Shown here: positions 6,198 to 53,297 of the stretch, piece by piece | How positions within the stretch are numbered: the stretch's first letter is position 1 | Layout: each line of letters opens with the position of its first letter | Assembly (NCBI GenBank): GCA_022750115.1 | Contig: JAKIWI010000001.1 | Coordinates: 293,246 to 357,245 of the forward strand | Origin: Thermoplasmata archaeon | Lineage (GTDB): Archaea > Thermoplasmatota > Thermoplasmata > Lutacidiplasmatales > UBA184 | Reading direction: 5' to 3' | Length of the DNA: 64,000 bases | Notes under the pieces: model-generated | Told to the model about the DNA's origin: nothing | Seen by the model: the letters and a program-made list of their open reading frames with translations, nothing else | The model's database searches: none | Translations under genes and position numbers: made by a program

Positions 6198-6224
6198 AAG
6201 TATTCCCGCGAATGCGGAATACTT
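6198..6224. promoter_or_regulatory. Perfect 9-9-9 inverted repeat upstream of surface gene
   Basis: Arms AAGTATTCC (6198-6206) and GGAATACTT (6216-6224) are exact reverse complements separated by nine bases. The right arm is also the left end of the 35-bp promoter element of the propeller gene, about 25-30 bases upstream of its TATA-like box, a position suited to a dimeric activator or repressor. The corresponding place at 34638-34647 is the ten-base palindrome GGAATATTCC. The site at 8978 keeps only the right arm. Confidence 0.5.
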
Positions 6225-6250
6225 GCGGGGTAAATGCGGCTCTCGCTTAA
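6216..6250 (+). promoter_or_regulatory. Shared 35-bp promoter element, copy 1
   Basis: This stretch aligns without gaps to 8978-9012 and to the minus strand of 34613-34647. Shared blocks are GGAATA-T, CGG-GT, ATGCGGCT and a terminal CTTAA/CTTAT that serves as the TATA-like box. The T of TTAA at 6247 lies 29 bases before GTG 6276. The ATG inside the element (6234) is in frame with the gene but is better read as promoter sequence, because the same ATGCGGCT occurs in copy 3, upstream of an unrelated coding frame. Confidence 0.65.
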
Positions 6251-6275
6251 CACCCCGCTGAGACGTGCCAAGACG

Positions 6276-8843
6276 GTGAGAGGATCCGGCCAGCGAGTCG
6301 CAATTGTTGCGCTCGGGGTGCTCGCTCTCCTCCTGCTCAGCTCCGGCCTCGCGGTTGCGTGGCAACCGTCGGGAGCTCGAGCCCTCCAACCCTCCAAAGT
6401 CCCCCCGCAAGAACTCGCGTCCCGCGCCTCTCCTCACGCCGTGGAACGGGCGGGTACTTCTCACGGAGGAGCAGGCTCCGCGGAGTTCGCGCAGACCTCG
6501 CCGGGAGTTCCGGCATTTCATCTTAGCACCGTGTCGCGCGCTTCGGCCGCGTGTCCGAACAATACCGGGATCAATCCGGCCTGGCTCGCGTACGATGCTG
6601 CGAACCAGACCTTCTGGGTTGCTGCTTCTCCCTCCTGCGTCGACGTGTTCACGATGTCCGTCTACGGCTATCCGTCGAACCTGACCGCGTCGATTCCGGT
6701 CGGGACCAACCCCTTCGGAGTGGCCGTCGACAACGTCACGAACGACGTGTTCGTGTCCAATCCCGGCTCGAACAACGTCTCCGTCATTTCGGCGACGAAC
6801 GACACATCAGTTGCCTCGGTCGCCGTCGGGACCAATCCGCACGGAGTCGCCTTCGATTGGGTCTCAAACTCGATCTATGTCGCGAACACGGGGTCGAACA
6901 ACGTGACGGTCATTTCAGGGACCAGCCTCGCCGTCGTGGGCACCGTGGCGGTCGGATCCTCCCCGATCGGCGTGGTAGCGGATCCAAAGAGCGGGGAGGT
7001 CTTCGTCGCGAATTTTGGGTCGGCGAACGTCACTGCGATCTCGGACTCAACGAACTTGGCAGTCGCCCAGATTCCGACCGGTAATGGGTCGTACGGGGTA
7101 GCCTGGGACAACGCCTCGAACGAGGTGTTCGTGAGCAATGAACAGTCGAACAACATTTCGGTGATCGATGCCGCCTCCGACTCGGTTACCGCGACTGTGC
7201 CGGTTCCCGAGCCGGTCCAGCTTCAGGGTCTCGCCTACGATCCGGCGACAGAGCAAGTTTGGGTCGGCGCCGGCAGAGCGTTCGCCGTCGTCATTAACGC
7301 CAGCTCGGAGACGTTGGTTGGCTACGCCGGGGCGGACCCGGCGGGCGTCGCCTACGACCCGGCAAATGGGGCCGTCTGCGTCACCAACACCGGGAACGTG
7401 ACGTTCGAATGCCTGGACTTCCGGTTCGTCTCCACCGCTGATCCGCTTACGTTCCACGAATCCGGGTTGCCCTCGGGATTCCCATGGTCGGTCGTTCTGG
7501 ACACGTACGTTTTCAACACCACAACCGACGTCTCGAGAAAATCGAATATCAGCTTCGGGGCATTCGGATTCTACGAGCAATACGATTTCCGCATTCCGTC
7601 CACTCACGACGCGACTGCGAGCCCGGCGAACGGTTCGGTGATCATGAAGGGGCCGCCGCTCGTCGTGAACGTTTCGTTCACTCCGGTTCTCGGCTTCAAC
7701 CAAGTATCGTTCAACGAGACCGGACTTCCCAACGGCACGAGCTGGTCCGTCCAGGTCAACGGCAGTCTGAACAGTTCCACGGGACCAACGAACATCTTCT
7801 GGCTTCCGAACGGAACCTACAACTTCGGCGTGGTACAGCCGTTCGGGTACGCGTCGAGTCCGAGGATGGGTTCGGTTGTAGTCGCGGGATCCGCGCAAGG
7901 TATTGCCGTCGCCTTCACCCCCGATCCGACCTACGCCGTGTTCTTCACGGAGACGGGACTGCCCGATGGCCGCGTTTGGTCCGTGTACTTGGGCGGCGTT
8001 GCAGAGTCCGACACCGTTGGGGTTGGGGTGCCGCCGAGCGTCACCTTCTCGGAGCCGAACGGAACCTACGCCTACCGAGTCGGCGCCGTCAGCGGATTCA
8101 CGCTCGTATCGAGTTCGGGGATGTTGACCGTGAATGGAAGTTCGAAGTTGATCGGCATCGCCTTCACGGCCGTGCCTGAGTCGATCTACGATGTGACCTT
8201 CACCGAGAGCCGGCTCGCGATTGGGACAAACTGGAGCGTGACGCTCGGGGCCGCTACCCTCGCCTCGTCGACCAATTCGGTTGGGTTCGTCGAGCCGAAC
8301 GGAACCTACCGGTTCGTCGTGAACAGTCCCCCAGGTCTCGGCGCCTCGCCGGCGCGGGGCTCGATCGTCGTGAACGGGTCGGCCGCCTCGCAGACAATCG
8401 TGTTCTCGGCGGTTCCGGTCCCTCTCTCGGCCAACTTCACGTACCAGATCCAGTCGGCCGGGTGCGAGACCGACGGCGGTGTCACGAACCTCGTGGTACT
8501 GAATGCGGTGGCCGGCGGTGGAGCACCGCCGTACGCCTACGCTTGGACTTCGCCCACCGGCATTGCAACGACGGCGCTCACGGCGACGACGACAACCTAC
8601 GGAAAGAACAACACCGTGACGCTGGCGGTCTCCGATTCCGCGGGGAAGACGGCGACCCATTCCGCGCTGCTACCGATGCAGCTCCCACCCTGTCCTCCTC
8701 CGCCCTTCAAGACTTACGCGGCGGGCGCGTTGTCCGCTCAGGACTGGGCCATCGTGGCTCTGGTAGTGGCCTTGGCGGCCGTCACCGGCGCAGCCATCTG
8801 GTTGGGCACCCGCGGGAAGGGCGGCACCTTAGGGAAGCCGTAG
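6276..8843 (+). CDS. YVTN beta-propeller surface protein with repeat domains and C-terminal anchor
   Basis: About 855 residues. After a signal-like helix (IVALGVLALLLLSSGLAVAW) comes a run of roughly 42-residue YVTN/NHL-type blades (for example DVFVSNPGSNNVSVISATND and SIYVANTGSNNVTVISG) forming a seven-bladed propeller. It is followed by four repeats that begin FxExGLPxGxxWSV and contain NGTY, typical of Thermoplasmatota secreted proteins, then a PKD-like segment and a C-terminal helix (DWAIVALVVALAAVTGAAIWLG). GTG 6276 is chosen as start because it lies 29 bases after the TTAA box, exactly as for the next gene and the thermopsin gene; an in-frame ATG exists at 6234. It is probably an exported, glycosylated and membrane-anchored binding protein. 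Confidence 0.87.
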   Translation: MRGSGQRVAIVALGVLALLLLSSGLAVAWQPSGARALQPSKVPPQELASRASPHAVERAGTSHGGAGSAEFAQTSPGVPAFHLSTVSRASAACPNNTGINPAWLAYDAANQTFWVAASPSCVDVFTMSVYGYPSNLTASIPVGTNPFGVAVDNVTNDVFVSNPGSNNVSVISATNDTSVASVAVGTNPHGVAFDWVSNSIYVANTGSNNVTVISGTSLAVVGTVAVGSSPIGVVADPKSGEVFVANFGSANVTAISDSTNLAVAQIPTGNGSYGVAWDNASNEVFVSNEQSNNISVIDAASDSVTATVPVPEPVQLQGLAYDPATEQVWVGAGRAFAVVINASSETLVGYAGADPAGVAYDPANGAVCVTNTGNVTFECLDFRFVSTADPLTFHESGLPSGFPWSVVLDTYVFNTTTDVSRKSNISFGAFGFYEQYDFRIPSTHDATASPANGSVIMKGPPLVVNVSFTPVLGFNQVSFNETGLPNGTSWSVQVNGSLNSSTGPTNIFWLPNGTYNFGVVQPFGYASSPRMGSVVVAGSAQGIAVAFTPDPTYAVFFTETGLPDGRVWSVYLGGVAESDTVGVGVPPSVTFSEPNGTYAYRVGAVSGFTLVSSSGMLTVNGSSKLIGIAFTAVPESIYDVTFTESRLAIGTNWSVTLGAATLASSTNSVGFVEPNGTYRFVVNSPPGLGASPARGSIVVNGSAASQTIVFSAVPVPLSANFTYQIQSAGCETDGGVTNLVVLNAVAGGGAPPYAYAWTSPTGIATTALTATTTTYGKNNTVTLAVSDSAGKTATHSALLPMQLPPCPPPPFKTYAAGALSAQDWAIVALVVALAAVTGAAIWLGTRGKGGTLGKP

Positions 8844-8906
8844 AGATCCGCCGCAGTGCCACGGCTTCTGGGCAGCCGTCGAACGCCCCTTGACCTACCC
8901 GCCCGT

Positions 8907-8943
8907 GGGACCCGCGAGCGAAGCGAGCGGGGGAAAACCCGCG
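8907..8943. repeat. GC-rich intergenic repeat, copy 1
   Basis: The stretch beginning GGGACCCGCGAGCG and ending ACCCGCG is repeated with few changes at 11916-11952. Both copies follow the stop codon of a surface gene, by about 65 and 35 bases. CCCGC and GCGGG can pair across it. A role in 3' end formation is possible but not shown. Confidence 0.4.
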
Positions 8944-8977
8944 TGAGTCCGCGAACTTCTCCGGTCCCGCAACTCGC

Positions 8978-9012
8978 GGAATACTCCCGGGGTGTATGCG
9001 GCTCCGGCTTAA
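8978..9012 (+). promoter_or_regulatory. Shared 35-bp promoter element, copy 2
   Basis: Second copy of the element at 6216-6250, differing at six of 35 positions. It ends in CTTAA, and the TTAA at 9009 is 29 bases upstream of GTG 9038. It keeps GGAATACT and ATGCGGCT but lacks the left arm of the inverted repeat seen before copy 1. Confidence 0.65.
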
Positions 9013-9037
9013 TGTCCGCACGGGACCTGCGCAGACG

Positions 9038-11878
9038 GTGATAGCGGTCGAACGGCGAGTGATCGAAGTTGCGGTCGGCGTGCTCGCCCTGCTACTTCTC
9101 AGCTCAGGCCTGATCGCCGGTGGGAATGTGGGGGTGGCCGGGACAGTCGCGCCCCCAAACGTTCCGCACCCAGTGGCCGGTCACGGCTCCTCGGCAATCG
9201 TAGTTCACCATGGCAACGACGCGACGCCGGAGAGGGCGTCTCCGGCTTCGGATCGTCTCGAGCTGGCTACAGGCGGCGGCGCGTGGACGAACGTCACGGG
9301 TGTGATCGCTCCCCATGCGAGACTCGGGGCCGCGATGGCGTACGACCCCCTCGCGGATTCCATCCTGCTGTTCGGTGGAATGTACGGCCCGAACGGAGTC
9401 TTCAGCGGGGTGAACTCGACGATGCTGAACGATACCTGGCTCTTCGCCAATGGCTCCTGGACGAACGTCACCGCGACCGCCGGCACCCCACCCCCGGCCC
9501 GGGCCTTCGGGTCGCTCACGTATGATGCCCGCGACAAGTTCATGCTGCTGGCTGGCGGCGAGGGCAGTAGCGGCGGATGCAACGCGCCGTGTAGCGATAC
9601 TTGGCGTTTCGAGGGGGGGAAGTGGTGGAAGCTGCCGGCTGCGACGCCGAACGCTCGGGGATTCTCGGCGGTCTACGACTCGTCGGCCGGCTTTGTTGTG
9701 GGGACGCAATGGAATCTCAACGGGGCTGGGAGCGGCGCTGGAGGGGGAACCTACGGATTGCTGAACCTCTCAAGCAGCAATTGGACTCAGCTGGGATACA
9801 ACGCGACGACAAACATGACTTCCCCATCACCTGACTTTTGGCATCCCGCCCTCGTCAACGACCCGCTAGAGCACGGGATACTGATGATCGGTGGCACCGA
9901 CCAAGGCAGCGGAGCGAATGCAGAGAGTTGGCTCTACTCAGGCGGGATCTGGACCGACCTGAGGGGGGCGGCAGGTGGTCTCCCGCCTGCGACTCCCTAC
10001 CCCTCGGCGGCGTACGACCCTGCGACCCGGAACATTGTGCTAGCGCAGGCCGGCGGTTTGTCCGAGACGTGGGGATTCAATGGGTCGTGGGCGAATGAAT
10101 CCGCCCCGACTCAGCCCCCGGCGCTCGGGGCTGGAAGCCTCGCTTGGGATGACTCCCTCGGGGCCGCCGTGCTCTTCGGGGGCGCGCGGGCCGCACACTT
10201 CGGAAGCCCGATCCTAATCGGCGCTGGGAACTCGACGAACGATACCTGGGAACTGTCGAACATTAGCCGAATCGGTGCATCAAACTGGACGAATGCCACC
10301 GCCGCTCCCCAGCCACCTTCCATCGAAGCGCTGGCGAATCCGACGGCAATGGCCTACGACCCTATGTCGCGACAGGTCATTCTCCTCGATGGACCGTGCA
10401 ATTCGCAAAGTGCTCTCGTGAACTGTACGGGGAATCAGACCTGGATCTATGCCAACGGGACGTGGACCAACATGACCGCCACGGCGGGCCCGGCTCCGCC
10501 CCCCGCTTATGGTCTCGCCCTCGCGTACGACCCTCTCACCAAGTCCGTGATCGCGGCGGGCGGCGGACCTCTCGACGGCAGCAAACCGGGGATGTGGGAG
10601 TTCTCGAATGGGACTTGGAGACCGCTTCCCTGCAGAGGGGAATGCCCCGGCGGCTTGGCCTTCATGGTCTGGGACGCCGCGGAAGGCTACCTGTTCCTAC
10701 TCTCGTCGTCTGGAGCGGGCAATGCGGGTTCCGTTGACCCGTATCGGTACGACGGCCGGGCATGGACGGACCTGGGTCAAACGAACAACACGACATTCGT
10801 TGAGCCAAACAACTTCGACGGCGCCTTGGCCTACGACTCGCAGATGGGCTGCGCTGTCTGGTACGGCGGTTGGACCTTGGGCGGCAGCCAGTCGGCCAGC
10901 ACGTGGATCTGGTCGAGCGGTTCTTGGATGAACGCGTCCGCGACCGCAGGACGCGGCCCGGGTCCCCGGTCCGACATGGCGATGACAGCCGCCGCGGATG
11001 GAACCGTCGTCCTGTTCGGAGGCGAGGTCAACGGCCAGACACGAAATGACACGTGGTCGCTCGAAGGAGGCATTTGGAGCAACCGCGCCCCAGGAACAAG
11101 CCCGCCACCCTCGCTCGCCGGCAACTTCGTGCTCGACAGCGGAATGCGCTCGGACCTCTTCTTCGGTAGCGACCTCGCCGGCATCGCATCTCGAACAGGG
11201 ACATGGTCTTGGGGCGCGAGTGCTCCGCTCGAAATCCGCACGATTTCAGCCACCCCGAACCTAACGGAGGTCGGAGCGCCGGTGATATTCTCGTCTCTTG
11301 CCACCGGGGGGTTGAGCCCCGACGTGTTTGAATGGGCCTTCGGCGACGGCGCGTCATTGACGTCGGAGACCACGACGCACACCTACGCGCGACCCGGTAC
11401 GTTCGTCACCCAGCTCTGGGTCAATGATTCGGGAGGGGGCGCGATCACGCGCAATGTCTCGATCTTGGTCCACTCCGCGCTCTCGATGGGCCTCTCCGTC
11501 TCGAACACCTACGTCCTCCTAGGCAAGTCACTCTCGATCACCGCTTCCACGAGCGGCGGGGTGGGTCCCCTCGCGTACTCCTATTTGGGGCTCCCGCCTG
11601 GCTGTGCCACGGTTGACGCCGCGAATCTGACCTGTACTCCCTCGCGCGCTGCGGCCTACAACATCTCCGTTTCCGTGAGGGACAATCTGGGTGTGCACCG
11701 CACTCAGTCGATCGATGTGGTCGTGTTCATTCCCGTCTGCGCCTGCGGTCCCGTACCTGCCGCGACCTCCGGTCTGGTTACCTTGCTTCTGATCGCCGGA
11801 TTCGGTGCCGCCCTCGCGGTCGGTGTCGTCACCAGCGTCATTCTGCTCCGCCGTCGGGGGCGAGGACCTCAGCCTTAG
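9038..11878 (+). CDS. Kelch/galactose-oxidase-like surface protein with PKD domain and anchor
   Basis: About 946 residues. It has an N-terminal signal helix (VAVGVLALLLLSSGLIAGG). A long series of kelch-type blades then follows, with motifs such as AMAYDPLADSILLFGG, TWLFANGSWTNVT and LAYDPLTKSVIAAGG, enough for two propellers. After that comes a PKD domain (EWAFGDGASLTSETTTHTYARP) and an Ig-like region, ending in a membrane helix (VTLLLIAGFGAALAVGVVTS) and RRRGRG. GTG 9038 matches the leaderless spacing; an in-frame ATG at 8996 lies inside the shared promoter element. Its N-terminal 40 codons resemble those of the gene at 6276, so the two 5' ends share ancestry. Likely an exported adhesion or carbohydrate-binding protein. 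Confidence 0.87.
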   Translation: MIAVERRVIEVAVGVLALLLLSSGLIAGGNVGVAGTVAPPNVPHPVAGHGSSAIVVHHGNDATPERASPASDRLELATGGGAWTNVTGVIAPHARLGAAMAYDPLADSILLFGGMYGPNGVFSGVNSTMLNDTWLFANGSWTNVTATAGTPPPARAFGSLTYDARDKFMLLAGGEGSSGGCNAPCSDTWRFEGGKWWKLPAATPNARGFSAVYDSSAGFVVGTQWNLNGAGSGAGGGTYGLLNLSSSNWTQLGYNATTNMTSPSPDFWHPALVNDPLEHGILMIGGTDQGSGANAESWLYSGGIWTDLRGAAGGLPPATPYPSAAYDPATRNIVLAQAGGLSETWGFNGSWANESAPTQPPALGAGSLAWDDSLGAAVLFGGARAAHFGSPILIGAGNSTNDTWELSNISRIGASNWTNATAAPQPPSIEALANPTAMAYDPMSRQVILLDGPCNSQSALVNCTGNQTWIYANGTWTNMTATAGPAPPPAYGLALAYDPLTKSVIAAGGGPLDGSKPGMWEFSNGTWRPLPCRGECPGGLAFMVWDAAEGYLFLLSSSGAGNAGSVDPYRYDGRAWTDLGQTNNTTFVEPNNFDGALAYDSQMGCAVWYGGWTLGGSQSASTWIWSSGSWMNASATAGRGPGPRSDMAMTAAADGTVVLFGGEVNGQTRNDTWSLEGGIWSNRAPGTSPPPSLAGNFVLDSGMRSDLFFGSDLAGIASRTGTWSWGASAPLEIRTISATPNLTEVGAPVIFSSLATGGLSPDVFEWAFGDGASLTSETTTHTYARPGTFVTQLWVNDSGGGAITRNVSILVHSALSMGLSVSNTYVLLGKSLSITASTSGGVGPLAYSYLGLPPGCATVDAANLTCTPSRAAAYNISVSVRDNLGVHRTQSIDVVVFIPVCACGPVPAATSGLVTLLLIAGFGAALAVGVVTSVILLRRRGRGPQP

Positions 11879-11915
11879 GATCGAGCTTCGACTCGGGACA
11901 CTCCGCATCACTCGG

Positions 11916-13074: not shown

Positions 13075-15840
13075 TCAAAACAGGTCGTCTACGGGGTCGG
13101 CCGAGGCGGCCGGAGGAGATTCGGACGGCCCGGGCGCCCGATAGGGGGCGTACTTCGGGTCGACGGACTCGCTCCTAGGGGGGCCACCGCTGCGGCGTCC
13201 CCTCCCAATCGCGACCCCGATGAGGATAGCGATCAAGGCCGCCACCGTGGCCGTGGCCGCCGCCAGTAATGGCGAGATACCGCCTGCGGCGACGCTGGGA
13301 CCCGTGTGGATCGGACCGACGAAGTGCTGACCGCCCACCTCGAATTCGGTCGTGGCGTTGCCCCAGACACCCTGCGAATCAGTGACGGTGAGCGAGACAA
13401 CGATCGTGCCGGTGCTTATGGGAGTGCAGTTCAGCTGCGTAAGCCCCGTCTCATGGCATCCAATCGGAGCGTCGGTCCAACGGAGCGTGTAGGCGCCCTG
13501 ACCACCGGCGACCGTCGCGGTGACGCTATCGGCCCCCCCGAGGGCAATCTCTGCGGAGGATGCGGCCAGAGTCACCTGGATAGGACCCCCACCGGAGGCG
13601 ACGGTCACGTTCCACGAGTCGGACAGGTAGTTGCCGGCCTGATCGGTCACGAGAACCGTGGCACGGTAGACACCCGGAGACGAATACACGTGGCCCGGAC
13701 TCGAGAGCTGACTCGTCCCGCCGTCACCGAAGGCCCACGCGAAGTGGTAGCCCGGGGTGCCGCCCGAGACGTGACTTGCGAATCCCACCGGAAGCGGCGA
13801 TGCTCCGAAGCTCACGTTGGCGAAGGCGGACAGATTGAGCGCCGTCGTGATGTTCTCGGTGGCGTTGACAAACGCCCCGGCCGCGTCGGTGATGGTGACC
13901 TCGGCAATGAAGGGGCCGTTGGTCGTGTAGACGTGGGATATGTTCCGGAGGTCGCCGCCAGTCCCGCCGTCTCCAAACTGCCAGGCGTACCGGTACGGGT
14001 GTGTTCCACCGCTGACCTGGGCCGTGAAGTTGACGAGTTGTCCCAGATAGGGATTAGCCGGGGAGGCCACAACCACGGGGGCTGTGAGTGCCGGATTCAC
14101 TTGTAACGAGAGGTTCTGCTGAAGCTGGCTCCCGCCCGAGTCGTTCCACCACACCTGGGGGGTGTAGTTCCCTGAGAATTCGTAGCAATGCGTCGCGTTC
14201 GCCGTCCGTGCGACGGAGCCAGGCACGCAGATCGAGTTGTTGAGCAGGCTCGTCGGCATGTCCCCGAAGCTCCAGACAAAGCCCGAGAATCGACCGGAGA
14301 CGCCCCCCGAAGCCCCAGCAAGGAAATCGGTCGGGACCCCGACGTCCGTCGGATTCGGAAGGAGTCGCGGGGTGAGAGTCGCAGAGCTGGCGACGATGAT
14401 CCAGCCGGTCGCGTTCACCTGGTGGCCGTAACTGTCGCGAACTGTCACGCCCAACATGTAGTTGCCCGAGTTCGTGTACGAGTGAGAAGGAGTCGCCGCG
14501 GTGCTCGTCGCACCGTCACCGAAGCTCCAATTATAGCTGAACGCCGGGACTCCGCCGAGAAAGGAGGCGTTGAATTTCGTTGACGCTCCGGGATCGACAG
14601 GGCTGGGACTCGCGAGAATCGAGAGGCCCGCGATTGCTGGGTGCGCCGTCCATGCCCAGGTATTCCACGGGTGGGGCTGGAAGTCATCGGCGAGGACACA
14701 CGCCTGATCGGCCCCGTCCCACGCGAAGAGTGGGCCCTCAGACAGGGGGGGCGCGAGAGGGTTGGTGACGTTGGTCCAGTTGCGATCATAGAGGTACGTT
14801 GTCACGTGCTGCGTTTGGAAAGGAAAGTAGTCGGTGGTCACATACACGACGTAACCTTCGGCGGTGTCGTAGCAAGCCTCGCCGGTCTCCCCGTACTGCC
14901 CGAACGCCGAGGGCGGTGGCGCGCCAGAGCTGTTGGTCACGTCGGACCAATTGCCCGCTCGATAGAGCCAAGTAGTGCTCGTCGGGCGCCCATTCGAATC
15001 AAGTCCGCCGAACAGCATGACCCCCTGATTCGCCGGGTCGTCCACGAAGGTTCCACTGCAGTCCTGCGGCGGAGGAATAGTCCCGTTGGGTCCGCCGTTG
15101 GCCGTCAGATTTGTCCAGACGCCGCCTGAAAAGCTCCAAGTCTGAGGCTCTCCCTCACCGAGTGCTGGTTTGGTGCAAGTTTCCGCCAGAACGTATCCGT
15201 CCGTCGAGTCGTATACCTCCCATTCACGATCGTTGGCGACGATTCCCGGAGTTGCCGTGAGATTACTCCAGGCGCCACCAACGAAGGACCACGACTCGGC
15301 ACAGAGAGTCGAGGTGTTGGAGAAGCATTCTCCTCCGACAAGCATGAGATACCCGTCGGCGGCATCCCAAATCAAGCTCGATCCGAAGTGAGGCGGCGGA
15401 GCCGGCCCAACAGTGAGGGTCACGTTCCGCCAGGTTCCATTACCGAACGCCCATGTTTCATTCAAGACGGGGGCGCTCCCTTGGTGCTCTCCGCCGAAAA
15501 GCACCATGTATCCATCCGTGGCATCGAATCCCATGGAGGCACCGTACAGAGGTCCGGGGTTGCCTCCGCTGGTGACGTTCTCCCAGCCGAAGGCGCCGGG
15601 AGGAGACGTTGTCGCGCGGACCTGAGTTTGGATCGCGGGACCCTCGGTGGCGCGAACCTCATGCGGCGTGTCCGAGGCAACCGGCAGGCCGACGGCCGCC
15701 GGTAGGTGGCTCGGTTCCACGTGCGGGGCGAATTCGTCCAGCATGGTGGGCCCACCGAGCGACACAATCAAAGCGGCGACGGCGATCAGCAGGCCACGTG
15801 TGAGGCCAGGCGAACGGTTGTGGGGTCGGGCTGCTGTCAA
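13075..15840 (-). CDS. Kelch/PKD surface protein with C-terminal anchor
   Basis: 921 residues. The signal helix is LLIAVAALIVSLGGPTML. Residues about 60-430 hold kelch-type blades (DGYMVLFGGEHQ, DGYLMLVGGE, GVMLFGGLDSNG). They are followed by four PKD domains with the WxFGDG...H.Y signature (NWSFGDGATSTAATPSHSYT, WQFGDGGTGGDLRNISHVYT and others). The C-terminal membrane helix (LLAAATATVAALIAILIGVAIG) precedes basic residues and a Pro/Ser-rich cytoplasmic tail. The start is TTG 15840, 38 bases from a TTAA box inside a 19-bp element shared with the next gene. An HTH regulator follows 24 bases downstream. Confidence 0.87.
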   Translation of the reverse strand: MTAARPHNRSPGLTRGLLIAVAALIVSLGGPTMLDEFAPHVEPSHLPAAVGLPVASDTPHEVRATEGPAIQTQVRATTSPPGAFGWENVTSGGNPGPLYGASMGFDATDGYMVLFGGEHQGSAPVLNETWAFGNGTWRNVTLTVGPAPPPHFGSSLIWDAADGYLMLVGGECFSNTSTLCAESWSFVGGAWSNLTATPGIVANDREWEVYDSTDGYVLAETCTKPALGEGEPQTWSFSGGVWTNLTANGGPNGTIPPPQDCSGTFVDDPANQGVMLFGGLDSNGRPTSTTWLYRAGNWSDVTNSSGAPPPSAFGQYGETGEACYDTAEGYVVYVTTDYFPFQTQHVTTYLYDRNWTNVTNPLAPPLSEGPLFAWDGADQACVLADDFQPHPWNTWAWTAHPAIAGLSILASPSPVDPGASTKFNASFLGGVPAFSYNWSFGDGATSTAATPSHSYTNSGNYMLGVTVRDSYGHQVNATGWIIVASSATLTPRLLPNPTDVGVPTDFLAGASGGVSGRFSGFVWSFGDMPTSLLNNSICVPGSVARTANATHCYEFSGNYTPQVWWNDSGGSQLQQNLSLQVNPALTAPVVVASPANPYLGQLVNFTAQVSGGTHPYRYAWQFGDGGTGGDLRNISHVYTTNGPFIAEVTITDAAGAFVNATENITTALNLSAFANVSFGASPLPVGFASHVSGGTPGYHFAWAFGDGGTSQLSSPGHVYSSPGVYRATVLVTDQAGNYLSDSWNVTVASGGGPIQVTLAASSAEIALGGADSVTATVAGGQGAYTLRWTDAPIGCHETGLTQLNCTPISTGTIVVSLTVTDSQGVWGNATTEFEVGGQHFVGPIHTGPSVAAGGISPLLAAATATVAALIAILIGVAIGRGRRSGGPPRSESVDPKYAPYRAPGPSESPPAASADPVDDLF

Positions 15841-22368: not shown

Positions 22369-22409
22369 TCGGCAGCCTAATAGAGCCAGTCAGGGTGCGA
22401 AACTCTGCC

Positions 22410-23522
22410 TTGCGAGCCTTTGCATCGAAGCCGATCCGCCGCTCCACGCGGACGACATGGGTGCTCCTCGTCGCGATGATCCTGGTGGGGACCTCGGTTC
22501 TGGTGGTTGCGACCCAGCCCACCAAGACTCTCTTCACCACTGACTCACGTGCCACCGCCGTCCTCACTCCGCTCGCCTCCAACCTCACCGGGCCGCTCGG
22601 CCGCATAGGGCCCATATTCGTTTATGACCCGCCCACGGGGGCCTTCGTGATGTTTGGTGGCCACCGTTCGCAAGCGGGAGTCGGCGGGACCTGGGAATAC
22701 AAGGCGGGCAGATGGACCAACCTGAGCCTCACCACGATGCCTCCCCCTCGGTCGTTGGCGAGCGCTGTTTACGACCCAACCCTCGGAGGGGTACTGATGT
22801 TCGGCGGGAATGGAGGGCCGTTCCCCAGCTACCTCAACGACACTTGGCTTTTCAAGAACGGAAGCTGGACCGATCTGACTCCGAACCTCGTCGGGCACCG
22901 GTCACCATCCGCGACGTACGGAGCGGGATTCACGTATGATGCAAAGGACGGGTACGCACTCCTGTTCGGCGGAATGCTCGCAAGTGGCTACTCCAACTCA
23001 ACTTGGGCGTTCAGGAACAACACGTGGTTCCAGCCGTCGTGCGTTGGAGCTGGGTGCCACGCACCCATTCCGATGGTTGGACCTTCGTTAACCTACGATC
23101 CCTCCATCCAGCGCGTGGTGCTCTACGGAGGCTACGGTTACCCGCCGCACGCGTTCGCAACGCAGCTGAACGGGACCTATCGGTTCCTCAACGGGAACTG
23201 GTCCCCTGCGATCCATGCCACTCCGCGCCACTCTCCTGGGGGACTCTACGAGCAGAGCACTCAGTGGGACCCGTCATGCCAATGTTTGGTGATGTTCGGC
23301 GGCATCAACGGAGTGGCGCACCCCACGGACCACACGTGGGAGTACGTGAATTTTACCTGGATCCCGGTACTTACGCCCTCTCCGCCCCCCGGAATGTACA
23401 TGGAGCAGCTCGCCTACGATCCAACATCTCACTCGATGATTCTTTTCGGCGGCGAATTGTTCAACAACATTCCGAACAGCCACCTATGGGTGTTTGCAGG
23501 TGGCTCCTGGACGAAGCTCTAA
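22410..23522 (+). CDS. Secreted kelch-repeat protein (about 370 aa)
   Basis: An N-terminal basic stretch and membrane helix (TWVLLVAMILVGTSVLVVAT) are followed by six kelch-type blades with the recurring pattern YDPxxxxxVMFGG and TWxFxNxxWxxL (for example GGVLMFGGNGGP, GYALLFGGM, HSMILFGGELF). The sequence ends at the last blade (HLWVFAGGSWTKL), so there is no C-terminal anchor, unlike the other surface proteins; the N-terminal helix may hold it in the membrane. TTG 22410 is 32 bases after a TAATAG box. GTG 22395 is the alternative start, but it would sit only 17 bases from the box. Confidence 0.82.
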   Translation: MRAFASKPIRRSTRTTWVLLVAMILVGTSVLVVATQPTKTLFTTDSRATAVLTPLASNLTGPLGRIGPIFVYDPPTGAFVMFGGHRSQAGVGGTWEYKAGRWTNLSLTTMPPPRSLASAVYDPTLGGVLMFGGNGGPFPSYLNDTWLFKNGSWTDLTPNLVGHRSPSATYGAGFTYDAKDGYALLFGGMLASGYSNSTWAFRNNTWFQPSCVGAGCHAPIPMVGPSLTYDPSIQRVVLYGGYGYPPHAFATQLNGTYRFLNGNWSPAIHATPRHSPGGLYEQSTQWDPSCQCLVMFGGINGVAHPTDHTWEYVNFTWIPVLTPSPPPGMYMEQLAYDPTSHSMILFGGELFNNIPNSHLWVFAGGSWTKL

Positions 23523-26608: not shown

Positions 26609-26630
26609 CTGCCTCTTGGTCCCGCTCAGC

Positions 26631-28808
26631 GTGGTCGGTCCGAAACCACGAGCTCTCGGGGTGTTGATGGTCGCCCTCGTCGGGCTAGTGGTACTCCTGG
26701 TGCTTCCGACCACCGTGATCGCTTCATCGCGGAGCGCTGCGCCGTCGTTGCCCGCGACACCGTCGATGGAAACACCATCCGACCTCGCCCCGAGTCATCC
26801 CGGGCTGCTCCTGCGCTCCGACGTCGCGAATCCCTCAGGGTCGCCTCGGGCGTCGATCTCTCCGGTGGCCAGCGCCCCAGGCGATTCGCTGCCGCCTCAT
26901 CCGCGTGCTTCGATCGTGAACCCGCTCCAGTTCTACACCCGGGAACCGGCGCCGATGGGAATCGCCGATTTCGGGGTGACCGGAACTTCGCCGGGCGCGA
27001 CCGCCTACGAGTATTCCTCGCCGAGCTTCCAGGGACAGGCGGTCGTCCGGTCGCTCTCGGTCTCGATCGGTGGCTCCTCTTCGAAGGTCACGGCGTTCGA
27101 GCTCAACGCGGTGGTCGAGTTGCAACGGAACGGGACCAACTACTCCTACTGGATCCAAAACGGACTCCACCTCGACGCCGGTTCCGACGAGTTCACGATC
27201 GGAGGGGCGTACGTCTGGAACTTTTCCTCACCAGGCGCCCGGCTCAGCTCGGGCGAGCTGAGCGGAAACGCGGGCTCGGCGCTCGCCACGGACACCTACT
27301 ACGACATTCCGAGCTGCGGGCCCACCTACCCCGGGCAGTGCACGACGATAGGTCTGCCGGCGACTCTCACGGGTCGCATTCTCACGTCGACGAGCGGGGG
27401 GTACCCCTACGTCGCCTACCAGTACGACCTCGGCTCGGGCTGGGTCACCTACGACAACGTGACGTTCAACCATATGGCGAACGCCAGCGACTCGGGATTC
27501 CGGGTCGACGGGTTCGCGCCGACGCCCTATGCCGCCGGACTCTACTACGACTCCGAGTGGGTCTGGGTCGGGGCGGGGGGCGGCTCTGCCAGCACCGACC
27601 AACAATCGGACATCAACCTGACCCTCTCCTGGTGGAACGGTCACAATTTCCAGGCCGTACCGACGGCGTGGAACTTCGGAAGCAACACGGGCGAGACGTC
27701 CACGAACGTGACGGATGTCGGGACGGTCCCCCTCGGGGGGCATCTCACCAGTGGCCCGGGCACCTTGGGGGTCCTGTACAATCGGACCGGAGTCGGCTTC
27801 CTCAACCTGACCGTGCCGACGCTCGGTTCCGCGACGGTCCTCGTCGACGGGCGCTCGCTCCCGTTTCACGGAGGGTGGGCCAATCTGACTCTCCCGGTCG
27901 GAACCCATTCTCTCGATCTCCAGAACTTCACGAACGCCTCGGATTCCTTCGCCATTCTCGCGGGTTCGACGACGCCCGTCAACCTTTCCGGTGCGGGCGA
28001 GGTGATTTTCAACGAATCCGGTCTCCCCATGGGCACGCCCTGGGGGGTCACGATCAATGGCACTCGCCTCGGAACGTCCTTTCAGAACCTGAGCGCACAT
28101 CTCCCGAACGGGACCTATCCGCTGGCGTACGCGGAGGTCTCCGGTTTCTACCTCCTCGGAACGAACCCCGTCACGCTGACCCTTCCGGGCCCATCGCGCA
28201 TCTCCCTCACCTTCGCCCCGGTGACCTACGCGGTGAATTTCACGGAGTCCGGCTTGCCCGCATCGACCCCCTGGTGGGTGAATGCGAGCGGTAGCCTCGT
28301 CCAGAGCACCGACACCTTCCTGCAGCTGATGGCCCCGAACGGCTCGACGAACTACACGGTCGGTTCCCTCTACGAATTCCTTGCAAACCCCCACGGGGGG
28401 TCGATCGTCGTTTCGGCTGGGGTCGCGACTCCCGTTGCGGTGGCGTTTTCCTACCGCCCCACGTTCATCTCGGGAACAGTCGTCCCCGCCGACGCCGAAG
28501 TCTCGATCGCCGGAATCGTTCAGGCGCTGTCGGGCGGCGGCTTCAACGATTCCGTCATTCCGGGGTCGTACGACCTCGTCGCGAGCGCGACCGGGTACGC
28601 GACGGATCATCTCACGGTGACCGCCACACCAGGAAACGTCACGGTGGAGGACCTCACGCTCAGAGCCAACCAGACACAACCGTCACAGACGTCCCCCGGT
28701 CCGACGGCCGGGGGTGGAATCCCCGTGGACACCGCGGTCCTCTTGGTGGGCGCGGTCGCGGCCGTCGCTATCGCGGCGGTGGTCGTGGTGATGCGCCGAC
28801 GAACGTAG
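26631..28808 (+). CDS. Thermopsin-family (peptidase A5-like) secreted protease
   Basis: About 725 residues. The signal helix is VLMVALVGLVVLLVLPTTVIA. Residues about 90-390 match the thermopsin family: the block YTREPAPMGIADFGVT, then VELQRNGTNYSYWIQNGL, DEFTIGGAYVWNFSS and SEWVWVGAGGGSAST. Thermopsins are archaeal acid proteases of unknown catalytic mechanism that act outside the cell. Two ESGLP repeats (MGTPWGVTING, ASTPWWVNASG), a PEGA-like domain (GTVVPADAEVSIAG, SYDLVASATGY) and a C-terminal helix (VLLVGAVAAVAIAAVVVVM) follow. GTG 26631 is chosen from the promoter spacing; TTG 26616 is the upstream alternative. Many sequons suggest glycosylation. Confidence 0.88.
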   Translation: MVGPKPRALGVLMVALVGLVVLLVLPTTVIASSRSAAPSLPATPSMETPSDLAPSHPGLLLRSDVANPSGSPRASISPVASAPGDSLPPHPRASIVNPLQFYTREPAPMGIADFGVTGTSPGATAYEYSSPSFQGQAVVRSLSVSIGGSSSKVTAFELNAVVELQRNGTNYSYWIQNGLHLDAGSDEFTIGGAYVWNFSSPGARLSSGELSGNAGSALATDTYYDIPSCGPTYPGQCTTIGLPATLTGRILTSTSGGYPYVAYQYDLGSGWVTYDNVTFNHMANASDSGFRVDGFAPTPYAAGLYYDSEWVWVGAGGGSASTDQQSDINLTLSWWNGHNFQAVPTAWNFGSNTGETSTNVTDVGTVPLGGHLTSGPGTLGVLYNRTGVGFLNLTVPTLGSATVLVDGRSLPFHGGWANLTLPVGTHSLDLQNFTNASDSFAILAGSTTPVNLSGAGEVIFNESGLPMGTPWGVTINGTRLGTSFQNLSAHLPNGTYPLAYAEVSGFYLLGTNPVTLTLPGPSRISLTFAPVTYAVNFTESGLPASTPWWVNASGSLVQSTDTFLQLMAPNGSTNYTVGSLYEFLANPHGGSIVVSAGVATPVAVAFSYRPTFISGTVVPADAEVSIAGIVQALSGGGFNDSVIPGSYDLVASATGYATDHLTVTATPGNVTVEDLTLRANQTQPSQTSPGPTAGGGIPVDTAVLLVGAVAAVAIAAVVVVMRRRT

Positions 28809-28990: not shown

Positions 28991-29088
28991 CGATCTCGCC
29001 CCCAATCTGGCAAGGCATGAACTCGGATAAGCCCCCGCACTCGGACACCGCGCGTCCCGGGGGGCGCCCAGCGATATTCCGGACCGGC

Positions 29089-29388: not shown

Positions 29389-29533
29389 CGCGCCTTCCGT
29401 CCCCGTGCGAGGGAGGCCTTCCGAGTATTCAACGGGCGGGGTTGAGCTCGGGTCACGCTTCCGAACGCGGCCACGAGAGTTGGGTCGAGAGGTGGGCGGT
29501 CGGCCGCCCTCCTGGTCTGGGCCCCGGATGACG

Positions 29534-29552
29534 GAACAATGTTCCATTGTTC
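29534..29552. promoter_or_regulatory. 19-bp palindrome between TauE-like and Rieske genes
   Basis: GAACAATG (29534-29541) and CATTGTTC (29545-29552) are exact reverse complements with a three-base centre, and the shorter GGAACA-a-TGTTCC overlaps it. It lies 55 bases after the TauE-like gene and about 145 bases before the Rieske start. It is AT-richer than its surroundings. A regulator-binding site is the simplest reading. Confidence 0.45.
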
Positions 29553-29607
29553 TGACTCCAGCGGGGCCGCGTTCTCCCGAGTGGCGCACGATCCGAACGT
29601 TCGCGGC

Positions 29608-30573
29608 CTAGGGATCGACCCGTTCTCGAACGGCCGACGCTGGGGACTCGCTTGCCCCCGCGGCGCCAGGGCTCGTCGGCGCCGACCCGGGCGCGAGCGG
29701 GGTATCCACGATCTTGCGGGAGTACGGCAGCCGATAGAGCGAGTACGCCGCGAGCGCTACAATGACCGCCGCCAGGGCCGCGAAGAACAGGTAGCCGATG
29801 GTGGAGCCGACCCATTTGAGCTTCACCAGCACTTGCGAGAGACCGAAGGAGACGACGAGTCCGTCCATCGCCATCACGAACCGCGTGAACACGTCCCGCG
29901 GGACTCGGGCCATCACCCACGTCCCGAGCGGTACGCCGATCAGGACCGGGATCAGGAGGTAGGGGACGAGCGCGAGGGAGGGCGCGGCGATGAGGTTCGC
30001 TCCGAGGAACTCGGTGAACAGCAGATAAGTCGCCAGGGTCAGGCTCGACTCCGCGACCCGGACCTGCGCGAGTGTGCAACGGAACTCGTTCTTCGTGAGA
30101 CCCTGGTTCCGGAAAAACACCGCGAGGGGAGGGCCGGAGATCGTGGTGAGAGCGTAAAGGAACCCGATCCCCGGTCCGAGGATGTTGCCGCCCCGACGTT
30201 CGTTCGTGAACGGGCGCCGCAGGCCGAGGAGCTGCACGACGACGAGTGGGAGGAGGACGACGTACACGACGAACTTCACGTCGTTCACGGCGAGGTAGGT
30301 GAGCCCGACCGTCCCGAGGAGGACCCCGGGGAGGAGCGTTTTCACGACCGGCAGCGCGCGCGCCTTGGTCGCCGGGATGAAGGCCCGTTCCCGGTACAGG
30401 AGAGTGAGGTTCACAAGAAGCTCGACGCTGACGAGCGCCGGGTTCAGGACCTTGTTCGTGAACCAGAGCAGCGCGATCGGGGTCACGATGGAGGAGAATC
30501 CGTAGCCGATCGCTCCGTTGATCGTCGCCGCGAACAAGGCGACGATCGCCAGATAGATGCTCGACCAGTCCAT
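29608..30573 (-). CDS. TauE/SafE (DUF81) family membrane permease
   Basis: About 321 residues with eight or nine hydrophobic helices and the family's N-terminal pattern (ATINGAIGYGFSSIVTPIALL), repeated in weaker form after the middle (GPGIGFLYALTTISGPPLAVFF). TauE/SafE proteins export or import small anions such as sulfite, sulfoacetate or other organic acids; the substrate is unknown here. ATG 30573 is preferred over ATG 30609 because it begins directly before the first helix. A TATA-like AAGTATG lies at about 30611-30617. A Rieske gene follows downstream after a palindrome. Confidence 0.85.
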   Translation of the reverse strand: MDWSSIYLAIVALFAATINGAIGYGFSSIVTPIALLWFTNKVLNPALVSVELLVNLTLLYRERAFIPATKARALPVVKTLLPGVLLGTVGLTYLAVNDVKFVVYVVLLPLVVVQLLGLRRPFTNERRGGNILGPGIGFLYALTTISGPPLAVFFRNQGLTKNEFRCTLAQVRVAESSLTLATYLLFTEFLGANLIAAPSLALVPYLLIPVLIGVPLGTWVMARVPRDVFTRFVMAMDGLVVSFGLSQVLVKLKWVGSTIGYLFFAALAAVIVALAAYSLYRLPYSRKIVDTPLAPGSAPTSPGAAGASESPASAVRERVDP

Positions 30574-30624
30574 GGATTCGCCTTCGGTAAGCGATGGCTG
30601 GGCACGCATCCATACTTACTGGTT

Positions 30625-31174
30625 TCGGATTCCGCGACACGGCCCGGACCGGGTGCGACGACCGGGAACCATCGCATGGGCGCTAAGGTGAAATCGGTGA
30701 CTCGAGCGGGGCACCGGGTGGGTCTTGCTCGGTGCGAAACGTGGGGCGAATCCGCGCGAGGTCACCAGACCGGAGTGGGGGGTCTCAGTGGGCCGGGACC
30801 TCAGGCGCGGCTACTTTCGCCGGCTGGAGACGCTGGCCCCCGAGACGAGGAAGTCCGACGCCCCCCGCAACGCCGCTCGGGCCCGGCCCGTCGACTCCAG
30901 ATCCCGGCAGCCGACGTGTCGGAGCGCGGGATTCCTCCTCGCGGAGTTTGCCTCGGCGAGGGTCGTCGTCGGCCGTGCTGAGCCGCCGTCGCGCGCAACT
31001 CGAAAGCCATTCGGGGAGCCCGTCCGTTCGACGCAGGCGATCTCGAACGAGGTCAACGGGCCGGGCACGGTGCGCCGGGAGACCGCGCCGACAGATCGAA
31101 CTGCGCGAGCCGGGCGGCGCCCTGCCCGGGGTTCCCGTCAGAAGGTTCTGCTGGGCGCCGTGCGTCGCGGGGGT
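30625..31174. other. Non-coding stretch, nothing recognised
   Basis: About 550 bases between the start of the TauE-like gene and the stop of the fibronectin-III surface gene. Open frames exist on both strands because of the high GC content, but their products are Arg/Pro/Ala-rich and carry no motif. No RNA gene or clear repeat was seen. Confidence 0.4.
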
Positions 31175-34100
31175 TCAGTTCGGACGCCCACGTCGTGGCA
31201 CCAAGAGCAGGTAGACGACGAGCGCCCCGGCCGAGAGCCCGCTGAAAATGAGTAGCACAACGGCCGGAGACAACCAGGAGAACGACCCGTGATGCGCCGA
31301 TCCCACCGTTCCCCCCAGTCCGGTATCGGAAGTCGTCGTAGAGCCATTCACGTAGCTGATTCCCGACGCACCCAGGGGCAACGAAGCCGTCACGCCGAAG
31401 CAGTAGGTGGACGCAGGGGCGAGGCCGACGACGACGAACGAATCTCCCGATCCGCCGGTGCTTTGCCCCGGGTTGGACCCGAGGCAGGTCGGGCCCACCG
31501 TCACCACGGAGTTCCAAACCGCCCCGGGCGGGTTCGTCCAGGCGAGCGAGGCCGTCGTGGCCGTCGTGCGCTCCACGGTCAGGTTCATCGGCCGGAGCGC
31601 CGCGAGCGGAGACGGACCGGCCAGCGTCGTGAAGATGCCGGCGGTCGGGGCGGGCGAGTTGCCTGCGGAGTTCCAGGACAGTACGGTCCAACAGTACGTT
31701 GTGTTCGGTCGAAGTCCGGTCAGGTTCGCTGTGGTGGACGCGGAACCCAGCTCGTCCGCTCGGTCGAACGAACAGTACTCGCCGAAATAGACGGTGTCGT
31801 TGGCGATCCCCTGCCTCGCGCTCTGGTTCCACGCGACGACAGCGAAGCCCCCGCCGAGGGCGACGGTGGTTAGGTTCGTCGACGCCGCGGGCGGGAGCAG
31901 CGTCGTCACCGACAGGACCGGCGAGGCGTGGCCCTCGCCCGAGCGGTTCCATGCCGTGACCTCGAGGCAGTACGGAGTGCCCGGTCGAAGCTGCTCGAAG
32001 GTGAATCCGACCGCGCCCCCGAGCGTGCTGTGGCCGACGAAGGGTCCGACGCAGCCCGTCTCGAGATAGACCGTGTCGTTCACGATACCGCCCCCGGCAG
32101 GTTGGGCCCACGCGACCTCCAGGCTGGTCGCCCGAAGAGCGGTCACGGCGAGCGCTCCCGGCGCCTGCGGGGCCGGGTCCACGGCCGTCGTCACATCGAG
32201 GATCGCCGACCGTCCCCCCTCGCCCGCGGTCGACGACGCCGTCACCTGGAAGCAGTAGGGGGTCAGGCCGGCGAGCCCGAACAGCGTGTACGTGGTCGTG
32301 GCGAGTCCCAGGTCGACCTCGACGGGAGTCGAACACGTCGGCCCGGACTCCCAGTAAACGTGGTTGTCGGTGAGGGCCCCGGTGGGGTTGGTCCATTGGA
32401 GCGTGATGGAGTAGAAGGTGTGCGAGGGCGAAACGAAGGCCGTCGGGGGCGCTGGCCCGATCTGGCGCGTGGTGGCGTTGAACCAAACCCCCTCGTTCGT
32501 GCCGTGCAAATTGGTCGCCTGGATCCGGAAGAAAAACGTCGTGCCGGGCGTGAGGCCGGTCAGGGCGAGGAGGGTCGCGTTCGGTGCCGCGACGCTTTGC
32601 ACGCTGCCCAGCAGCGCGCTCGGGCCCCACTGGACCGTGTAGTTGAGCAGCGGATTCGTCCCGTCGGACGGCGGAGCCCAGGAAACGTTCAGGGTCGTGG
32701 TCCCGGCGGTGACGGAGACGTTCGTGACGTTCGACGGGGCCGATCGCTCGGCCCGACCAGCGGACGCCGCGAACGGAAAGACCGGGCCGGCCGAGCGCCA
32801 ATAGTACTGGACCGTCCCGGCGGTGGTCGCGCCGTAGGCGTTTCCATCCAGGGCGCAGAGTGAGCCGTTCGACCGGCAGTCCACGCTGCCCTCGACGAGG
32901 CCGAAGGTCGTGTTGAAGAACATCCCTTCGACGGCGGAGTTCTCGACCAGCCCCTCCGAGGGGAACCACTGGCCCCCGCCGGCCGCCTTCAGCTTGTACT
33001 CCGCCGGGTGGTCGTAGGTGATGTTCGTTCCCACCCAGCTGGGCGATGGATCGCGGAGGTCGGAGAACGATCCGTTCTCGAAATTCACGTCGGTGTAGCC
33101 GGCGTACGCGGCGCCCCAGCTGAAGACGCTCACGCGATGCTCGCTCGACATCACGGAATACGGCAGCGGACTCCCGATGCTCCGGTCCAGCGGGAACCCG
33201 CCGGAGTAGTTCGCGATCTGCCGGTCGAGGGTCCCGTCCGGGAGGAGGTGGTAGACCGTGGTCGCGAAGGTGGGGGAGGTGGCGAGATAGGTGAAGGCGA
33301 GCGTGCGGGCCGTGACGTTGAACGCGAGCCCGTTCACTCCGTTCGACGTATACGAATGGGCGAACACGCCCGAGTAGACCGGGACCATCGTCGTCCCCGG
33401 CGCGGTCCCTTCCAGGCGGTACTGGATGATTCGGTCGGCCGAATTACCGCCCGCCTGAACGTCGAGGAACGAGTCGAGCTGCGGGATCCAGTAGACGTTG
33501 TTCGCCTCGAAGAAGGCGAGCTTCGCGAGCGGCCACTCGGTCTGGTTCCAGAAGTTGTACGCCTCCACGGTTCCGTTCGCGGCGATCACCGCGACGATCG
33601 AGTAGTTCCCTCCCTCGCCGAGGAGCTGGATCTGGCCGTTGTCGTAGAGGGCGGAGGTACCGATCCCGGTGAAGTTGTACTCCCAGGTCCGACCGGTCGT
33701 GACGTTCGCCCAGAACGCGGTGACGCTCGTCCCCGCGGGCGCTGTCCGACCCATCGTGTAGACGTACTGACTGTCCTGGGTGATCCACTCCGTGTCCTCC
33801 AGGCCGTCGTAGTTCATCAGGTTCTGATAGAGCGGCGTCCAGTTCGCGATCGACTGCAACGAGGCGTTCGCGAACGAGTAGAACACCAGGCGATGCGAGG
33901 CGTTGACGTAGTACACTCCGTCTTGGCTCCACGAGAGGAGGGGCACCTGCTGCCCCGCGACGTGGAACCCGCTCGAGCAGGGGCTCGTGTGGACGTCGCA
34001 GTTCGAGTTCGCCGCGAACGCCGACAGGTTGGTCCAACCGGGGAGGACGAAGTCGTGGGTGCTCAGCGCCTCGAACGGCTGGGCGGTGAAGTTGAGGAAG

Positions 34101-34558
34101 GTGGTCGTGTTCGCGACCCCCCCCAAGTGGGCCGACGCCCCCGCGTGGCTCGTGCTGCGGTTGGTCCAGACCCAGTAGTTCGGGCCGGGAACCACCCCGC
34201 CGACCACATACGCCCCGGTCTCGTTGGTCAGGGTTGAGTTGGCCGAGGTGCACGACGACTCGCTGGCCGGTAGAGTGCAGTTCGTGGTGAGGTTGACCTC
34301 GATGCCGCCGAGGCCGAGGCCATGAATGTCTCGAACCGTGCCGAGAATGATGCCCATCGCCGCTGCGAGCGCGGGGTGCGGGGCGGCCCTCGCGGCGCCA
34401 CCCCCCGCGTGCGGGACCGTGGTGGAAGCGGGGGAGGCTGTCGCGGGGGTCGACGCGGGTGAGTCCCGGGCCACCCGACCCGTTGCGAGTCCCGCACAGA
34501 GGAGGACCATGACGACCAGGACCGCGAGGGTCGCGGGCGCCGGCCCGCCTTCGCTCAT
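31175..34558 (-). CDS. Large surface protein with fibronectin type III repeats and anchor
   Basis: About 1127 residues. The signal helix is PATLAVLVVMVLLCAGLATG. A carboxypeptidase-regulatory-like domain (GTVRDIHGLGLGGIEVNLTT, GAYVVGGVVPGPNYWVW) follows. A beta-propeller-like region covers about residues 150-640. Five fibronectin III domains then appear, with signatures such as TTLNVSWAPPSDGTNPLLNY, YSITLQWTNPTG, TSLEVAWAQPAGG and TASLAWTNPPG. The end is a membrane helix (AVVLLIFSGLSAGALVVYLLL) and a basic tail. ATG 34558 is the first start before the signal. The promoter carries copy 3 of the 35-bp element, but here the leader is about 30 bases long, because the codon at the leaderless spacing is a GTG in another frame. 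Confidence 0.86.
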   Translation of the reverse strand: MSEGGPAPATLAVLVVMVLLCAGLATGRVARDSPASTPATASPASTTVPHAGGGAARAAPHPALAAAMGIILGTVRDIHGLGLGGIEVNLTTNCTLPASESSCTSANSTLTNETGAYVVGGVVPGPNYWVWTNRSTSHAGASAHLGGVANTTTFLNFTAQPFEALSTHDFVLPGWTNLSAFAANSNCDVHTSPCSSGFHVAGQQVPLLSWSQDGVYYVNASHRLVFYSFANASLQSIANWTPLYQNLMNYDGLEDTEWITQDSQYVYTMGRTAPAGTSVTAFWANVTTGRTWEYNFTGIGTSALYDNGQIQLLGEGGNYSIVAVIAANGTVEAYNFWNQTEWPLAKLAFFEANNVYWIPQLDSFLDVQAGGNSADRIIQYRLEGTAPGTTMVPVYSGVFAHSYTSNGVNGLAFNVTARTLAFTYLATSPTFATTVYHLLPDGTLDRQIANYSGGFPLDRSIGSPLPYSVMSSEHRVSVFSWGAAYAGYTDVNFENGSFSDLRDPSPSWVGTNITYDHPAEYKLKAAGGGQWFPSEGLVENSAVEGMFFNTTFGLVEGSVDCRSNGSLCALDGNAYGATTAGTVQYYWRSAGPVFPFAASAGRAERSAPSNVTNVSVTAGTTTLNVSWAPPSDGTNPLLNYTVQWGPSALLGSVQSVAAPNATLLALTGLTPGTTFFFRIQATNLHGTNEGVWFNATTRQIGPAPPTAFVSPSHTFYSITLQWTNPTGALTDNHVYWESGPTCSTPVEVDLGLATTTYTLFGLAGLTPYCFQVTASSTAGEGGRSAILDVTTAVDPAPQAPGALAVTALRATSLEVAWAQPAGGGIVNDTVYLETGCVGPFVGHSTLGGAVGFTFEQLRPGTPYCLEVTAWNRSGEGHASPVLSVTTLLPPAASTNLTTVALGGGFAVVAWNQSARQGIANDTVYFGEYCSFDRADELGSASTTANLTGLRPNTTYCWTVLSWNSAGNSPAPTAGIFTTLAGPSPLAALRPMNLTVERTTATTASLAWTNPPGAVWNSVVTVGPTCLGSNPGQSTGGSGDSFVVVGLAPASTYCFGVTASLPLGASGISYVNGSTTTSDTGLGGTVGSAHHGSFSWLSPAVVLLIFSGLSAGALVVYLLLVPRRGRPN

Positions 34559-34612
34559 CTCACACCCGGGGTGTGGCCCTTTGCCACGTCGGGAGAGAAC
34601 TCTCGCTCTCGG

Positions 34613-34647
34613 ATAAGGCTCAGCCGCATTTACGCCGGGAATATTCC
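34613..34647 (-). promoter_or_regulatory. Shared 35-bp promoter element, copy 3
   Basis: On the minus strand this aligns without gaps to 6216-6250 and 8978-9012. It keeps GGAATA-TCCCGG, GTAAATGCGGCT and a terminal CTTAT box. Its left end, GGAATATTCC, is a perfect palindrome. The coding frame downstream is unrelated to the other two, so the conservation is not a by-product of gene duplication. Confidence 0.65.
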
Positions 34648-53287: not shown

Positions 53288-53297
53288 TTTATACACA

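Follow-up and report, generated by a model that had tools for sequence, protein, structure and literature searches.

We have analysed a window of 64,000 nucleotides from a Thermoplasmata archaeon, in which three genes for large secreted proteins are each preceded by a copy of the same 35-bp block. The gene behind copy 1 (6276–8843, plus strand, GTG start) codes for an 855-aa protein with a YVTN/NHL propeller, that behind copy 2 (9038–11878, plus strand, GTG start) for a 946-aa kelch and PKD protein, and that behind copy 3 (31175–34558, minus strand, ATG start) for a 1127-aa fibronectin-III protein. All three products carry a C-terminal hydrophobic segment, and the domain matches (YVTN/NHL, kelch plus PKD, and fn3) bear out their assignment in the original prediction as a YVTN propeller, a kelch/PKD protein and a fibronectin-III protein. 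The blocks can be read directly from the sequence and, as had been predicted, align without gaps: copy 1 lies at 6216–6250 on the plus strand (GGAATACTTGCGGGGTAAATGCGGCTCTCGCTTAA), copy 2 at 8978–9012 on the plus strand (GGAATACTCCCGGGGTGTATGCGGCTCCGGCTTAA) and copy 3 at 34647–34613 on the minus strand (GGAATATTCCCGGCGTAAATGCGGCTGAGCCTTAT, containing GGAATATTCC). Within them, pattern, identity and matrix scores support an upstream element at 6216–6240, 8978–9002 and 34623–34647, respectively. Copies 2 and 3 are identical to copy 1 at 29 and 26 of the 35 bases, while elsewhere in the window no place exceeds 20/35 and none of 30 Markov-1 sequences goes beyond 22/35. A joint 35-base pattern was also derived from the three copies themselves; allowing up to 3 mismatches, it picks out three places in the window, and none of 100 dinucleotide shuffles contains a match.

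The count of three copies holds for the window, but the genome (2,118,250 bases in 27 contigs, 90% complete) contains five strong ones, found with the 35-mer at up to 3 mismatches; the reversed control gave none. All five precede large secreted proteins. Copy 4 (C24:62500) stands before a 927-aa protein in which ‘TGLPSGTxW’ repeats are seen by eye, and copy 5 (C5:226203) before a 1274-aa protein that is 26.5% identical over 830 positions to the kelch protein behind copy 2. The proteins downstream of the element form a YVTN-propeller/‘TGLP’ group and a kelch/PKD group, with the fibronectin-III protein of copy 3 in addition. In a 439-kb sample of the genome, a matrix scan scored four sites at 50.7–55.0 bits, which is high by construction because the matrix included those four, the fifth at 25.6 and the next place at 10.2. 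With a matrix built from 17 sites of other genomes, a test that is not fully independent as those sites were found with patterns derived from this genome, the five copies again ranked first (27.4–42.2 bits; maximum on reversed sequence, 4.1). The next ranks were taken by C5:257109 (11.9 bits) and by window position 60362. At the former, the ATG of a secreted protein lies at offset 62; there is no GGAATA block, and the place is outside the 16 best of an upstream-only matrix. The latter is a weak candidate site (60362–60399, plus strand) with the right block and TATA box only, again without the GGAATA block and outside the 16 best of the upstream-only matrix; it lies before a secreted PKD protein (60423–62546, ATG at offset 62). 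Two 38-column matrices gave this candidate 7.1 and 10.0 bits, compared with 5.0 and 4.1 for the reversed null.

The original prediction had proposed a regulon for surface proteins, to be recognised by enrichment of the sites upstream of such genes. This enrichment was confirmed: in the 439-kb sample all five sites precede secreted-like genes, which are 30 of the 259 predicted (hypergeometric 1.5e-5; genes called with our own simple gene finder, which covers 75% of the sample, and secretion assigned by a hydropathy rule). Of these 30 secreted-like genes, however, 25 lack a strong site, so the proposal stands for a subset of the surface genes and not for all. Two further kelch proteins of the window, at 13075–15840 (with PKD) and 22395–23522, also have no strong site, and the element is therefore not simply travelling with the domain. 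The window additionally encodes a secreted thermopsin-family protein (26616–28808, plus strand).

We take the block common to the copies to be, in all likelihood, a composite promoter of the archaeal type, made up of an ordinary TATA box downstream and a specific element upstream. The specific element, GGAATAYTYCCGSCGTAWMTNCGCC, occupies roughly −60 to −36, on the immediate upstream side of BRE/TATA, and the consensus of 22 sites from the family, written from column counts, is GGAATAYTYCCGSCGTAWMTNCGCC-N5-TTYATAAG. The terminal CTTA(A/T) box, originally counted as part of the shared element, is indeed common to the copies (CTTAA at 6246–6250 and 9008–9012 on the plus strand, CTTAT at 34613–34617 on the minus strand) but is not specific to it. 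In the 439-kb sample, TATA-like words occur 18 times at distances of 30–32 nt before the 709 candidate starts of the 259 predicted genes, whereas almost all remaining distances between 10 and 74 nt have 0–2 of them; promoters with a TATA score of at least 5 bits number 47 at the right distance versus 12 at a control distance. This peak, with which the boxes of the three window copies agree, identifies the terminal box as the general TATA box of the genome and indicates that the mRNAs are probably leaderless; the sites of this genome conform to a TATA box about 26–31 nt before the start. In 43 other TATA-aligned promoters inspected by eye there was no consensus further upstream, save a slight excess of A 3–4 bases before the TATA box, and hence the upstream 25 bp are a specific feature.

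The position of the start codons is consistent with this anatomy. Copies 1, 2 and 4 have a GTG at offset 61, exactly 25 nt past the TTA(A/T) box, the relatives G025 and G010 (contig C26) also have their start codon at offset 61, and that of copy 5 is at offset 62; this codon is probably also the transcription start, which would make the mRNA leaderless. The ATG codons at 6234 and 8996, which begin the listed open reading frames of copies 1 and 2, lie inside the promoter block and extend the frames in phase, so an ORF caller may set these starts wrongly; the likely starts are GTG 6276 and GTG 9038. Copy 3 also has a GTG at offset 61, with a frame of only ten codons behind it (VAKGHTPGVR, 34555–34587, minus strand), and the 1127-aa reading frame starts from an ATG at offset 90, which the short frame overlaps as ATGA. 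A transcription start is predicted near 34587 for this copy. The ten-codon frame before the fibronectin-III gene could reflect translational coupling or be the remnant of a leaderless start.

The original prediction also required the blocks to be conserved in related genomes. They do recur, though only in a minority. Among 150 relatives, 7 have the core of the element with up to 1 mismatch, including three of the same genus (G045, G025 and G010). Across the 103 genomes of the family (own included), the 35-mer gave 20 matches in 13 genomes (control 0), and the upstream 25-mer alone, with the TATA box ignored, gave 23 matches in 14 genomes (control 2); in 400 genomes of the class there were 18 matches, 17 of them within the family (control 1). 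A match with 3 mismatches is present in G091, of the same order. Core matches outside the family were rejected: G107 and G112 have no long reading frame near offset 61, and in G092 the GTG at 61 opens 203 aa that do not look secreted by eye. The 35-mer and 25-mer searches together yielded 27 distinct places, from which the set of 22 sites was obtained by leaving out two places of G045 that hardly differ from copies 1 and 2, and a further three (G075:C1, G069:C29 and G009:C38) without a reading frame of the expected kind. A model built from the 22 sites (R2) had matches at E ≤ 0.05 in at least 19 of the 103 family genomes, an undercount owing to strict filters and to an upper limit on the number of candidates that were scored; at this threshold the other 84, including 30 of the 36 of good quality, had none, which suggests that the element is confined to part of the family, is fast-diverging, or was missed because of the filters or of incomplete assemblies. 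Three of the four new places given by this model (G044, G012 and G056) have by eye a secreted-looking frame at offset 60–63, and the fourth (G075:C99) does not fit. Another model (R1), run on 96 genomes, found eight strong matches, none of them at a new place; its weak ones (E 0.015–0.77) were inspected only where other searches also gave them.

The 22 family sites lie mostly before YVTN-propeller and kelch/PKD proteins. They were gathered without gene information. A secreted reading frame, scored automatically as an ATG or GTG within offset 59–64, a length of at least 250 aa and a hydrophobic N-terminal segment, follows 17 of the 22, or 17 of 25 if the three dropped places are counted; in the 439-kb sample, 0.2% of 124,618 background positions satisfy the same rule. 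The other five sites are copy 3 (offset 90), G074b (102), G070 (73), G082, which has a TTG start, and G155, where the contig ends and 86 aa can be read. G069 resembles the window with its copies 1 and 2 in that two element-bearing surface genes (C32:645 and 3872; L078 and L084) lie on the same strand at a distance of about 3.2 kb. The protein of copy 1 is identical over all 855 residues to one of Thermoplasmata archaeon AcS4-93 (JAKIWD010000079.1), where the same element is present. This archaeon is placed in Ca. Lutacidiplasmatales in Table 1 of PMC9287336, a paper whose main text uses none of the terms promoter, S-layer, surface protein or kelch.

Two symmetries had been pointed out in the blocks, and both are real, but neither defines the element. 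Copy 1 has a perfect 9-9-9 inverted repeat (6198–6224), the left block of the copy forming its right arm, and a degenerate counterpart of the repeat is visible in G025. An extra exact GGAATA on either strand within 150 bp upstream is found at only 4 of the 22 sites, however; this exceeds expectation (4 versus 0.46 in 22 × 150 bp, Poisson 0.001) and is still a minority, so the inverted arm was rejected as a general feature. In copy 1 the repeat may provide the promoter with a second half-site, without this being a rule. As to the palindrome of copy 3, GGAATATTCC, dyad symmetry was rejected as the organising feature of the element, since the best score over the 25 columns had p = 0.14 in 5000 column permutations; the inverted repeat of a dyad operator for a dimeric helix-turn-helix factor was not found. 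In this the element differs from the upstream activating sites of the Ptr2/Lrp type in methanogens, which are dyads. A direct repeat at 11 bp (p = 0.01, with the choice of the best of 15 spacings accounted for) is suggestive.

Could shared descent, and not function, explain the likeness? In this case a promoter and signal-peptide cassette would have been copied before different ectodomains too recently to diverge. Part of the data points that way. The DNA coding for the signal peptide is common to copies 1, 2 and 4 and to G025 in identical register, with identities of 0.53–0.72 compared with a mean of 0.30 and a maximum of 0.47 for pairs drawn from 14 of the remaining 18 sites, and over the next 100 bases the four are still at 0.35–0.51, partly above the average of those pairs (mean 0.30, maximum 0.48). 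Judged by these alignments, the four do share a promoter–signal-peptide cassette, and the genes, described as unrelated in the original prediction, are so for their mature proteins only, as copies 1 and 2 share signal-peptide coding sequence. Cassettes of the promoter and a 24-codon signal peptide in front of differing mature domains are seen in the window at 6276–6347 and 9038–9109, in L004 (from 1561) and in L012 (minus strand). Descent alone would hardly account for copies 3 and 5 and the sites of other genomes, which keep the element while their flanks are at background, nor for the presence of the element before both the YVTN and the kelch families; moreover, among six sites the element is more alike than the adjoining 25-nt spacer in 15 of 15 pairs, which were selected on the element. 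In the 14 cassette-free sites the mean pairwise identity is 0.67 for the element and 0.29–0.34 for the upstream, spacer, signal-peptide and mature regions, a contrast that is partly by construction because the sites were selected on the element. When the controls with reversed patterns and the positions of the genes are considered as well, this contrast would be best explained by conserved function, and we regard shared descent only as an unlikely account. Chance similarity of GC-rich upstream DNA is hardly credible at all, being refuted by the shuffle, reversed-pattern, matrix, gene-position and Markov controls.

If the element is functional, it could still be read in other ways. The near-rigid spacing to the TATA box would suit an extended core promoter recognised by an alternative TFB with no separate regulator, and the six TFIIB-repeat matches in this genome, a genome-level count, would fit three TFBs. 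The conserved block spans from about 30 to about 6 bp upstream of the TATA box, though, mostly beyond the usual position of the BRE, and by eye six matches are also common among relatives in which no site was detected; as genomes with and without sites are by eye not separated by it, the number of TFBs was rejected as an explanation, and we consider this reading rather improbable. A repressor that shuts the surface genes off would equally leave a conserved binding-like site without a sign of the type of regulation. Against it, archaeal activator sites are typically found upstream of the BRE, and those of repressors in the promoter region or downstream (PMC5512572), and an operator of this kind seems very doubtful to us.

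The conserved sequence lies upstream of the BRE, at near-fixed spacing, in several unrelated promoters, and co-regulation of the genes behind it appears well supported by these sequence comparisons. We propose that it is probably an upstream activating element for a co-expressed subset of large surface proteins, acting through a sequence-specific regulator. Such a regulator, most likely an activator, would bind the first 25 bp (−60 to −36), where the conserved sub-blocks GGAATAYT and CGTAWMT, 11 bp apart, would offer contacts on one face of the helix, and would help TBP and TFB at the promoters bearing the element, with the result that a small subset of large surface proteins, with five strong members in this genome, would be co-expressed. 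The start codon, 30 nt after the TATA box, would double as the transcription start and give a leaderless mRNA, and copy 3 would have a 29-nt leader before its ATG. Leaderless transcription, factor binding, activation over repression and co-expression are what we infer from the arrangement of the sites.

The window contains a gene (35407–35856, minus strand) for a patchy 150-aa protein that looks like a winged helix-turn-helix protein by eye, with no match in Pfam, NCBIfam or PDB and with homologues in 23 of the 103 family genomes. Its candidacy as the regulator was not supported: it is shared with 7 of 18 element-positive genomes versus 4.0 expected (p = 0.066), and a homologue is absent from the other 11, although many assemblies are incomplete. 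Another gene of the window (52609–53298, minus strand) codes for a regulator that resembles SufR of cyanobacteria, with a score of 108.6 bits, which is less than the family cut-off of 178.8 bits.

To our knowledge, little is known about gene regulation in uncultured Thermoplasmatota, and no report of the element was found in titles and abstracts of the open-access literature, among the matches listed. The described place of archaeal activators is directly upstream of BRE and TATA, with the EarA sites and the ara-box as precedents (PMC5512572). In the fla (archaellum) promoter of Methanococcus maripaludis, EarA likewise has specific sites just upstream of BRE/TATA, through which genes for a surface structure are controlled; these are four 6-bp sites before one operon, with a ribosome binding site marked in the promoter figure (PMC5512572), whereas here one 25-bp element stands before several separate, apparently leaderless genes. 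The ara-box of Sulfolobus solfataricus is also a consensus box that adjoins BRE and TATA on their upstream side and to which an unidentified factor binds (PMC5512572), although it is arabinose-induced, and the likeness drawn here is one of description. As in the Ptr2/Lrp-type sites of methanogens, where an activator site lies upstream of sub-optimal TATA boxes (PMC5512572), the element is on the upstream side of the TATA box.

What does the element mean for these archaea? As a tentative possibility, which we hold to be somewhat doubtful in its full form, one acid-soil family may have a dedicated surface regulon in which a factor and a phased element drive a few very large propeller, kelch and fibronectin-III proteins, and which genes join by acquiring the promoter-plus-signal-peptide cassette before a new ectodomain. 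A defined 25-bp element with five targets is a handle for finding the regulator. It helps to correct start codons, because the longest reading frames begin inside the promoter, and it could predict co-expressed surface proteins in metatranscriptomes.
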